A stretch of DNA of 40,568 nucleotides from a virus: positions 1 through 40,568 of IMG/VR virus record IMGVR_UViG_3300042546_000744. The stretch is one strand, 5' to 3'. Shown here in pieces: positions 21,398 through 27,993 of this stretch. The translations under genes and the position numbers were made by a program. The notes beneath the pieces were generated by a model that saw only the letters and a list, made by a program, of their open reading frames with translations, was not told where the DNA came from and did no database searches. Numbering within the stretch: the first letter of the stretch is position 1; the number at the start of each line of letters is the position of its first letter.

Positions 21398-22249
21398 TTA
21401 AAAAATATATCTTATGTTTTTAGGGTTAAAATATTTGCTATATAGAGTTTTAAACTCTTCAATCATTTTGTTTTTAAGCTGCCATTTATATCTAATGTTA
21501 TCAGCAGCATACTGAGAGTCTTTAGTTTCTTGTATATCAGGATTCCATAGAAGCTCTCTTACTTCTTCTGAATTCCTTTCATGCTGTAACTTATTGTGTG
21601 TCAAAAAGATACATTCACATTTAACATCTATACTAGCACTTTTAACTTCTTCAAATAGTTTTTTGTATTCATCTAACCATCCTTCTTTATAAATAATAGG
21701 ACTATAATTTATATGCACTTCCATATATTTTTGTAATCTAGGGATAGATTGTATGCGTTCAGATATAAAATCAGTTTTAGGTTCTAGTATATCAGAATAT
21801 TTCTGAGGCATTAAACTTACTCTAATCCTATGTTTATCTGGATTTAAACTATACTCTTCAGGTTTAAATTTTGTTGGATATTTAGTGGCAAATGTTGATT
21901 TAAGTTTAGGATGATTATTAAAGTAGTCAAATACTTTTTGCCAATCATATTGTTTTCTCATTAAAGGAACATCTGTACTACATCCTATATCTATTGTATA
22001 ATACTTATCATCTATTTGATTAGGGGTTTTAACATTAGGTTGTTTACTCACCCAGTTATCTATACTGTTAAATATATCTGCTCTATTCTCATTTATATAC
22101 ACTCTGTCATTGTTATATCTAGCAACATAACAATATGATGAAAGACATCCCCCGTTGCAGCCGTAAATAAAATTGGGAGAAATAGCATCACTACTTCTCC
22201 CATTATCTCTTGTTGTTAATGTTTTAGTTTTTTGGTGTATTATTTTCAT
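21398..22249 (-). CDS. spore photoproduct lyase-like radical SAM protein
   Basis: The Cys cluster CNGGCLSSYCY (C31, C35, C40 counted from the chosen start) is a variant of the radical-SAM cluster-binding motif with one extra residue before the third Cys. Together with ISPNF, YCYVARY and IDIGCSTDVPL it resembles spore photoproduct lyase-like proteins of phages. Such enzymes bind a 4Fe-4S cluster and S-adenosylmethionine; a DNA-repair or nucleotide-modifying role is possible but unproven. The chosen start is ATG at 22249 (MKIIHQKTKT), which overlaps the preceding dCTP deaminase-like gene by 26 bases. A start at 22279 would overlap it more and adds ten residues of unlikely N-terminus. The C-terminal peptide LYSKYFNPKNIRYIF recurs in the 22-aa frame at 20799-20867. 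Confidence 0.7.
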   Translation of the reverse strand: MKIIHQKTKTLTTRDNGRSSDAISPNFIYGCNGGCLSSYCYVARYNNDRVYINENRADIFNSIDNWVSKQPNVKTPNQIDDKYYTIDIGCSTDVPLMRKQYDWQKVFDYFNNHPKLKSTFATKYPTKFKPEEYSLNPDKHRIRVSLMPQKYSDILEPKTDFISERIQSIPRLQKYMEVHINYSPIIYKEGWLDEYKKLFEEVKSASIDVKCECIFLTHNKLQHERNSEEVRELLWNPDIQETKDSQYAADNIRYKWQLKNKMIEEFKTLYSKYFNPKNIRYIF

Positions 22250-22883
22250 TAAGATAATATTTTGATTCTTGAACACCAACTTGATTCATGTATTTAGATC
22301 CTGATTTAACATCATAAGATTCTAATATATCTCCTTCTACTCTTTCAAACTTGATTTGACATATCTTCATATTAGGATAGACAATGATAGGTCTTGTAGC
22401 TCTTAATTCTAATACTAAACTACCTTCAAATCCTGTATCAATAAAACCTGCTGGTCCAATAACAATATCTAATCCCAGTCTTCCTAAAGATGATTTAGCT
22501 TGTACTTGAGCACATATATTCTTTTTACATCCTATACGTTCATTACAAGCATATAAATACACCTCATTAGGAACTAATACATATCCTTCTTCAGGAATTT
22601 CTAATTCAATAGTTTTTTGAACTGCTCTAGGATCTAATGGTTTTTCGTATGAGTGTATATAATTATTACCATATGTAGTAACATTATAATCACCATAAGT
22701 TTTAACCCAAAAAGGTAATTCATCATAACTATTTACAAATAATTTTTCTTTTGGATATATTTTAACAGTGGGTGCTAATGTTAAATCTACACTGTTTGGA
22801 TTTAAATGTTCTTTTTTAAATCCATCTATAATAATATTTCCTGCTTCCATTTCTTGCAGGATCATGCTATCTGATAGTATCAT
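22224..22883 (-). CDS. dcd: dCTP deaminase / dUTPase-family protein
   Basis: The 219-aa product shows the trimeric dCTP deaminase/dUTPase core: AKSSLGRLGL (129-138), GFIDTGFEGSLVLEL (146-160, E153 at the position of the family's active-site Glu) and PNMKICQIKF (170-179). The N-terminus MILSDSMI is typical of Dcd. The enzyme would convert dCTP to dUTP, or hydrolyse dUTP, feeding thymidylate synthesis and limiting uracil in phage DNA. An extra segment of about 50 residues (45-95) separates the N-terminal part from the core. It lies in a run of nucleotide-related genes, overlapping both neighbours by a few bases. Motifs alone do not decide between deaminase and dUTPase. Confidence 0.85.
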   Translation of the reverse strand: MILSDSMILQEMEAGNIIIDGFKKEHLNPNSVDLTLAPTVKIYPKEKLFVNSYDELPFWVKTYGDYNVTTYGNNYIHSYEKPLDPRAVQKTIELEIPEEGYVLVPNEVYLYACNERIGCKKNICAQVQAKSSLGRLGLDIVIGPAGFIDTGFEGSLVLELRATRPIIVYPNMKICQIKFERVEGDILESYDVKSGSKYMNQVGVQESKYYLNENNTPKN

Positions 22884-25123: not shown

Positions 25124-26078
25124 TTAAAATAAGACACCTTGTACATAACCTGTCTTACTTTGAAATGTAATTGTTTCTATTTCTTTATAAATTCCATCTA
25201 AATAATACTGAAAATTAATATCAAGACTATCAAAATCAACCTCAAGTAAATCGGAAATATCATTACAAATGGTTTGCATCCATTTACCAGACTCTGCTTG
25301 AATTTCTCTACCATCAGGATGAACTTTTGTAATCTTTACACCATTGTTGCTGATAAAATATCTGTTTAATTTTTGTAGTTTATTTATAACAAAATTACCG
25401 TTGTCAATCTTCTTTTCTACAAAATTCCAAGCTCCTTTAGCTTTCACTGCACCGCAATAATCATAAAGATTTCTGTTGGTTTTAAGATAGTCTTCAGGTT
25501 TTATACCATCAACAAAGTATGCGTATATTGCTTTTGGTATCACTAAAAAACTTTTATTTTTATGTAATGCAAGGTCTTTATATTCAAAGAAACCTTTGCA
25601 TTTAGTTTTACCATTTTTATAAACTGCTATATAATTATTTACATCCCTAATAATTAGTTTACTGTATTCGTCATGTTCAAGCTGTAGTTTGGTCATCTGT
25701 TCCCATTCACTGCATATTTCCATATACAAATCTTTATATTGTACAGGAATCATCATTTCAAGACCATCAGTATTTTGCATAAGAGGTGTGCAATCAGGAA
25801 TTCTTTCTGCAAGCATCTCATACAGTTTAGATAGCCAAAGTTGACCATTGATGGTTATTTGCATAGTGAACATAGGATCATATAAAAAACTATTTTCATC
25901 ATTACTTAATCCATATGTGCTATTAAGAATAATCTTATATACATAATTTCTTGGATCAGATTTAGGAATTAATTTTCTTTCTTCAAAAAACCATTCATAT
26001 TGTTCCAGAAATTCTTTAGCAGGAAGGTGTTTTGGTGAGAATCCGTTTTTAATGGCTAAATTAGGATAATAACTAACC
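25124..26078 (-). CDS. DNA polymerase family B, exon 2 (palm motifs A-end, B and C)
   Basis: After the intron the frame resumes as V-SYYPNLAIKNGF, completing motif A begun in exon 1. Motif B is KIILNSTYG (368-376 of the spliced protein) and motif C is NTDG (422-425, with D424 as the second catalytic Asp). The segment VKAKGAWNF later in the protein matches the usual KxKG region of phage family B enzymes. The exon has no start codon of its own at the splice site; an internal ATG at 25873 would give a protein without motifs A and B. Joined to exon 1 the coding sequence is 1914 nt, exactly 638 codons including the stop, giving 637 aa. Confidence 0.9.
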
Positions 26079-27034
26079 CTTACTGTAATCTTTCATTACT
26101 GAAAGTGTCGGACTATATCTTCAGTTCTTTTTTCCATTTATATCCATATATACGTTTTTTATAACCGTTACATACAGAATAAATGTTTTGCCATTTATAA
26201 GTTGGATTTTCCTTAATTATTTCTTCTACAGTTTCGTAAATTTTAAATAAAGTTTCATCTTCATTTAACTGTAAAAATTTGTATTTTTTTTGTTTAGCAA
26301 GTTTAACATTTAATCTCATTAACTCTTTTTTATCAGGATTATTTTTCCAAAAAGCTTTACTTTTATCACCAATTTTTTTTCTTTCATTTGGCTCTAAATA
26401 TCTTTTATGCAAAGCTTCTTTTAATTTTAATCTAGTTTCTGCATGTGGTATCATACCACCTTTAGAATCTAATCTTTTATTATAACCTTTATTTGAATCA
26501 ATAGAATTATAAAAATGCATCCAATATAATTCTTTATCAGAAAGTTCATTAAATAAACATTCTTCTAAAACAATATATTCAAACGCTTCTTTTCCATATT
26601 TATGCCAAGCAGAAATAAAATGAGGATTTTCCTCTTTTTTTCTTTTTGCTGTCAACCCACATATATGAGCAACTATTCTTTTATAAATATTTATAGACTT
26701 ACCAATATATACTTTACCATTAATTAAATTTCTAATTAAGTATATACCACATTTATTTTTATCATATTTTTTTACTTTCATATAATAAATATACAAATAA
26801 TTAAGGTATTATCCTAATTTTTTAGGATAAAATCTTATTATAAATTTCAAAGAACTGTTCCACGCTTTTTCATTAGGTTACTAACCCTAACTACTTCCTG
26901 TTATTAAGCAAACTATATTGCCCAGGTAGTCTCTGAACCTTCTAAAAGTGTACTTTTAGCTTGGCTGCTGATTGCCCTTGCCGGCTGCAATAGGGTTTCC
27001 AGCAATTCATGGAATTAAGACGCAGTTTTAGTTT
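26079..27034 (-). ncRNA. group I intron in the DNA polymerase gene
   Basis: The RNA, read on the minus strand, has the conserved core: P-like AATTGCTGGAAA (within 26993-27007), Q-like AATCAGCAGCCAAGC (26959-26973), R GTTCAGAGACTA (26927-26938) and S AAGATATAGTCC (26110-26121). P7 forms from GACTA with TAGTC. The guide GCGTCT (27018-27023) pairs with exon end AGACGT through a terminal U-G wobble (P1), and AACT just before it pairs with exon 2 GGTT (P10). These place the splice sites after 27035 and before 26078, with G26079 as the terminal intron G. The endonuclease gene lies between R and S, and its stop codon is inside S. Confidence 0.93.
26113..26781 (-). CDS. intron-encoded GIY-YIG homing endonuclease
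   Basis: The 222-aa product has CGIYLIRNLINGKVYIGKS at its N-terminus, the GIY...YIG catalytic motif, followed by HKYGKEAFEYIVLEE, where the Glu residues are typical of the family. The C-terminus (around TLFKIYETVEEIIKEN and VCNGYKKRIYGYKWKK) resembles the NUMOD/IENR1 DNA-recognition modules. It would cut intronless DNA polymerase alleles and drive copying of the intron. I chose ATG at 26781; an upstream TTG at 26796 would add five residues. The stop codon TAG at 26113-26115 is part of the intron S element, so the gene and the ribozyme core overlap. Confidence 0.9.
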   Translation of the reverse strand: MKVKKYDKNKCGIYLIRNLINGKVYIGKSINIYKRIVAHICGLTAKRKKEENPHFISAWHKYGKEAFEYIVLEECLFNELSDKELYWMHFYNSIDSNKGYNKRLDSKGGMIPHAETRLKLKEALHKRYLEPNERKKIGDKSKAFWKNNPDKKELMRLNVKLAKQKKYKFLQLNEDETLFKIYETVEEIIKENPTYKWQNIYSVCNGYKKRIYGYKWKKELKI

Positions 27035-27993
27035 ACGTCTGAAGTCATAATAGTATACCCATATTTGGCTTCATACACTCCCGCTTTTCTTGCACCATGT
27101 ATCCCACCCAAACCATAAAAAGTTTCTACACCTTTATATTTAACACTGTAATTAAGACTTCCTTTTGTTTCTACAATCACCTTACTATTAAAATAATTCA
27201 ATACAGAATTGAATGTTTCTGTATCAAATTTAATATCAGGAATAATACAATCTTTTAATATGATGGATTTTCTTTTTGTTCTAAGTTGTTTAAGAGTTTG
27301 TTTGTCTATTTTAAGTTTATCTACTAAAAAATATGTAAACAACTCTTTAGATATCCGTGGTTCAGATGCACTATAAAGATCTATACCATATTCTTTTGTA
27401 AGGGTTTGTCTTAATGCTATTTGATCTCTACATAATGTCATAATCTTTTTGGTAGAAAGAATATCATTAATACAATATTTAATTATCTCATCTATTTGCT
27501 CAAGACTATCAATACTGGTTGAATGATGTATAGGCATTTCCAATACGTTTTCCCAATCCATACTATATTGTATCCATTTAAGACTGCTACTTTTAGCAGG
27601 ATTATCCCAATGATTCATTTTAAATAAATCAATCTGTTTAATTGACATTTTCCAAGATGGATAATCGCTAAATTCATTTCTATCTTGTTTATTTATAGTA
27701 CGCTGAGCATAACTATAAAGAAGTCGTGCAATAGTTTCAGGTTGTTGTTTTTTTATAGCATCTTTTTTTTCTAAAATATAATGAGTGATTTGTGAATCAA
27801 ATGCCAGTCCATTAAAAGAAATGTGCCATTCTTTATTTTTTATATTATTTTCTAAAAATTCTACAAATTCATTAAAATCGTTTCGTAGTTCATGAACAAC
27901 AAATGTTTTAATTTCAAAATTTATATAATGTACAAAACAAGCTACAAAACAATTGGATAAAGTTTCGTAGTCCATTACATAATGATTTGTCAT
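27035..27993 (-). CDS. DNA polymerase family B, exon 1 (3'-5' exonuclease domain)
   Basis: The exon encodes residues 1-319 and two bases of codon 320. The proofreading exonuclease motifs are visible: Exo I MDYET (D8, E10), Exo II NGLAFDSQ (D66) and Exo III YCIND (Y173, D177). It ends YTIMTSD-V, with D319 being the first catalytic Asp of polymerase motif A. Without splicing the frame would add one Asn and stop at 27028, giving an exonuclease-only protein. Spliced to exon 2 the motif reads D-V-V-S-Y-Y-P, matching DxxSxYP. This is the replicative polymerase of the phage, downstream of its helicase and primase genes. Confidence 0.92.

Follow-up and report, generated by a model that had tools for sequence, protein, structure and literature searches.

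How does a phage make its replicative DNA polymerase when the gene is broken next to a catalytic aspartate? This question is raised by the 40,568-nt stretch of viral DNA analysed here (the window; positions 1 to 40,568 of IMG/VR record IMGVR_UViG_3300042546_000744), in which the gene for a family B DNA polymerase (PolB) is interrupted inside motif A. An earlier note had attributed the interruption to a group I intron that carries a GIY-YIG gene, and homologs, Rfam matches, and covariation at the splice sites uphold this attribution. The insertion is almost certainly a mobile, self-splicing group I intron whose exons are joined in frame and which was spread by GIY-YIG homing. The features of the locus are collected in Table 1.

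Exon 1 ends with the codon of the motif A Asp and the first two bases of the following Val codon. Joined to exon 2, it gives a 1914-nt open frame encoding 637 aa (...TSDV|VSYYP...), which reproduces the in-frame join and the rebuilt D-V-V-S-Y-Y-P proposed previously. The spliced protein matches the PHROG profile phrog_1252 of phage DNA polymerases over residues 3-628 (E 1.3e-139) and contains Exo I-III and motifs A, B, and C of family B DNA polymerases; a Pfam search with it gave no match. Motif C, in exon 2, reads QNTDG instead of the usual DTD, as it does in nearly all relatives. All 80 viral PolB relatives that we retrieved (nearly all of them 57-77% identical, with a minimum of 52%) cross the junction uninterrupted and gap-free, and their motif A, SDV[TVI]S[FY]YP, agrees with that of the spliced PolB; the family B motifs as a whole are conserved among them. 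Read without splicing, the exon 1 frame closes at ...SDVN-stop, after the exonuclease domain, as the earlier note had stated.

Table 1. Coordinates of the PolB exons, the intron, and its elements in the window.
Feature	Position	Strand	Remarks
PolB exon 1 (959 nt)	27035..27993	-	3'-5' exonuclease domain: MDYET, FNGLAFD, YCIND motifs
PolB exon 2 (955 nt)	25124..26078	-	VSYYP (rest of motif A), KIILNSTYG (motif B), stop
Group I intron, 956 nt	26079..27034	-	phase 2 insertion, terminal G
Internal guide sequence GCGTCT	27018..27023	-	P1 partner: exon AGACGT, 27040-27035
P10 strand AACT	27024..27027	-	partner: first bases of exon 2, GGTT, 26078-26075
P3 5' strand TTCCATG	27008..27014	-	partner: CGTGGAA, 26864-26858
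P4 (TTGCTG / CAGCAG) and P5 hairpin; P and Q elements	26965..27005	-	
R element GGTTCAGAGACTA	26927..26939	-	P7 5' strand
P7.1/P7.2 hairpins	26865..26926	-	from R to P3 3' strand; subgroup IA trait
P8 5' strand AGTTCTT	26850..26856	-	partner: AAGAACT, 26129-26123; strands flank the ORF; read from sequence
GIY-YIG homing endonuclease ORF, 222 aa	26113..26781	-	in P8; stop codon within S element
S element AAGATATAGTC	26111..26121	-	P7 3' strand
P9 hairpin CTTTCAGTAATGAAAG	26090..26105	-	

The splice boundaries, P1, P10, and the core elements are exactly those that had been assigned before. P1 places a U-G pair at the 5' splice site, P10 is formed with exon 2, and the intron ends in G, with ...TAAG|GGTT at its boundary with exon 2. 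The P/Q/R/S core of a group I intron, with P3, P4, P6, P7, and P8, is recovered from the Rfam matches, the fold, and the covariation. The minimum-energy fold of the 5' part, obtained independently, contains P1, P3, P4, P5, P6, P6a, and the P7.1/P7.2 hairpins, and it is more stable than most shuffled sequences (z = -2.5; one of 200 shuffles equally stable). We observe P7.1/P7.2 between P7 and P3, a GUA linker, and no P2 stem, the traits given for the Pf-WMP3 intron of subgroup IA2, to which this intron probably belongs.

The Rfam model RF00028 finds the interval, as had been predicted for a covariance-model search, but in two halves and only when the region searched is restricted; a default scan of the whole window gave no hit. 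The 5' half (27064-26811) scores 47.8 bits (E 9e-11), just below the gathering score of 50 bits, and the S/P9 end (26123-26091) scores 21.9 bits (E 0.005). The match is split, and each half stays under the gathering score, because the ORF lies between the halves, so that the standard threshold misses an intron that its endonuclease gene divides. In the relative L103, whose intron at the identical site has no ORF, RF00028 scores 83.2 bits. Rfam revealed no further introns in the window.

With the endonuclease protein as query, and with two sequence patterns (one combining the S element with motif A, the other P1 with P4), we recovered introns inserted at exactly this position in many IMG/VR phages and in several independent lineages of PolB. 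Those of L103 and L114 are without endonuclease. P10 and P1, whose strands are fixed by the splice sites, can be compared among them. In P10, 32 of 36 cells are paired over nine distinct rows, against 19.2 after strand reassignment, and none of 10,000 reassignments pairs equally well. P3 is paired in 63 of 63 cases, with both sides changed in six of its seven pairs, for strands chosen manually with an eye to their pairing. Compensatory changes are also present in P1, where A-U becomes G-C in three introns (that of L114 among them), and in P4, and shuffles of P1 and P4 on their own are not significant (three distinct rows each). The P7 strands are invariant and hence carry no information on covariation.

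Two side observations concern the guide sequence and the sites it fits. The insertion site reads GATGT in 53 and GACGT in 27 of the 80 intron-less PolB genes, and the exact AGACGT that fits the guide sequence of this intron occurs in only five. Four relatives have introns with the same GACGT/GCGTC P1 at PolB residue ~467 (RDV|NN), a second Asp-Val codon pair, as if one guide sequence served two sites; this set is biased by a search pattern that demanded GACGT. In L092 and L109, the PolB exonuclease domain is interrupted near residue 141 by a further insertion that carries a GIY-YIG gene.

Since splicing is something we infer and the record is a metagenomic contig, the insertion could in principle be degenerate and non-splicing, leaving a PolB pseudogene, or be an assembly chimera. 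We consider this very improbable: both exons are open up to the last codon, the core helices are all intact and covary, the identical base is occupied in independent contigs and in the cultured phages Fpv1 and phi14:2, and the endonuclease gene is under purifying selection (see below). A production of PolB at the protein level, by assembly of separately translated exonuclease and polymerase halves or by an intein, would fit the way in which databases annotate the split PolBs of phi14:2 and Fpv1, as two genes. The chance of this is nearly nil, given that the break falls inside a motif A codon and that the RNA between the exons has a complete group I core, its P1 and P10 matched to them. The domain search found no intein, the ORF being GIY-YIG only.

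We therefore return to the self-splicing intron, for which the following course can be proposed. The element interrupts the Val codon directly after the motif A catalytic Asp in the replicative PolB gene of a probably crAss-like phage. In the transcript, the guide sequence of the ribozyme would pair with AGACGU of exon 1 (P1), and GGUU of exon 2 would be held through P10. The ribozyme would then excise itself and ligate the exons, so that D-V-V-S-Y-Y-P is restored in frame. Intron-less polymerase genes may be cut at the conserved site by the GIY-YIG protein, whose gene lies in P8, and recombination would copy the intron in (homing), allowing its spread between phages.

The intron might in addition act as a regulatory switch, the unspliced mRNA giving a free 321-aa 3'-5' exonuclease ending in D-V-N and the splicing efficiency setting polymerase output. 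This would agree with the presence of the entire exonuclease domain in exon 1 and with the in-frame stop that follows the junction within 1 to 17 residues in all same-site introns checked. Nevertheless, A+T-rich introns are expected to contain an early stop by chance, and its position is not conserved; we regard such a switch as very unlikely. Hardly more probable is the broader proposal in which the motif A Asp-Val pair is a recurrent hot spot for PolB introns of Bacteroidetes phages, the guide tracks both exons, and the unspliced mRNA yields a functional exonuclease as a replication switch.

Mobility, which is part of the preferred reading of a homing group I intron, is addressed by the endonuclease gene and by the distribution of the intron. 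The ORF product matches the GIY-YIG domain PF01541 (39.7 bits, E 6e-10; cut-off 22.6) and the homing endonucleases of phrog_314 (5e-27). With a dN/dS of ~0.27 (0.064/0.235), the gene is under purifying selection. Compared with L092, the DNA of the intron is 92.0% identical and that of the exons 67%; compared with L087, the values are 86.7% and 75-77%. The three nearest intron-less relatives are 71-77% identical, so the presence of the intron is patchy. Exon identity rises only slightly near the junction, where a co-conversion tract was looked for. The excess identity of the intron and its patchy presence together bear the signature of homing between phages, as judged from sequence comparison.

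The intron-bearing phage probably belongs to the crAss-like phages or to allied phages of Bacteroidetes. A plus-strand protein of 2250 aa weakly matches crAss cr108_1 (23% identity, E 3e-33) as well as putative RNAP subunits of cr85_1 and cr112_1, and the top matches of the helicase of the window, also weak, are crAss phages. This 2250-aa protein belongs to three giant ORFs on the plus strand at 242-20601 (1314, 3206, and 2250 aa), which have no PHROG match in the parts scanned; the 3206-aa one contains DFDID. On the minus strand, an ORF at 21398-22279 resembles spore photoproduct lyase (PF20903, 2.6e-8), which is unexpected in a phage replication region. We found no additional PolB or PolA in the window, a 40.6-kb fragment, or in six related records, all of which may be incomplete, and crAss-like phages carry one polymerase according to Yutin et al. 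2021 (PMC7886860). The phage would thus depend on splicing for its polymerase.

The case shows how gene callers can miss a replicative polymerase. Same-site introns with and without endonuclease, in PolBs that are 27-79% identical, also form a good natural dataset for homing and for the coevolution of the guide with both exons. The rarity implied at first is not supported, as many phages, some of them cultured and present in GenBank/RefSeq, have the same site filled, and PolB introns of crAss-like phages were published in 2021. That paper (Yutin et al. 2021, PMC7886860) describes self-splicing group I introns with endonucleases, as proposed here, in PolB and further core genes of crAss-like phages of the Delta and Zeta groups, in human gut genomes; as far as the main text goes, the exact PolB insertion site is not given.

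Cultured Flavobacterium phages such as Fpv1 share a related intron at the same PolB site. In Fpv1 (Fipvunavirus, RefSeq NC_031914), PolB, split into gp70/gp69/gp68, is broken at the identical place in the codon (GAT GT | T GCT GGA TAT TAT CC), the intron matches RF00028 at 45.8 and 22.3 bits and encodes a homologous GIY-YIG protein (47% identical to that of the window), and the helices are P1 AGATGT/GCATCT, read from the sequence, and P10 AGCA/TGCT. Its PolB, in contrast, is only 27-39% identical, and the record lists three separate genes, 'DNA polymerase / homing endonuclease / DNA polymerase', with the intron unnamed. In Cellulophaga phage phi14:2 (Crassvirales, Steigviridae), the DNA polymerase is split (gp029/gp031) at the corresponding point of motif A, VDF|ASYYP, by a group I intron that RF00028 matches at 41.5 bits (E 3e-9). 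Its intron is shorter (427 nt), has a P1 with one mismatch, and includes only a small ORF (gp030), whereas the GIY-YIG gene is absent. Our literature search found no paper naming an intron in phi14:2 or Fpv.

The intron-bearing polymerase genes of SPO1 and Bastille belong to family A. As is probable for the intron described here, those of SPO1 (I-HmuI), Bastille (I-BasI), and Pf-WMP3 (I-PfoP3I, PMC3428280) are of IA2 type; like it, they carry a homing endonuclease gene and lie in a conserved region of a replicative polymerase, but their endonucleases are HNH proteins and their insertion site differs. For Pf-WMP3, whose host gene is a family A polymerase as judged from its T7-like comparison, splicing was demonstrated in vivo and in vitro (PMC3428280). 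The observation made at this locus is confirmed as real and correctly interpreted, and it overturns no existing view. It is ordinary in kind, adding one more to the well-known class of phage polymerase genes whose group I introns encode homing endonucleases, and its novelty is low, as the arrangement is already present at the same position in sequenced and cultured phages.
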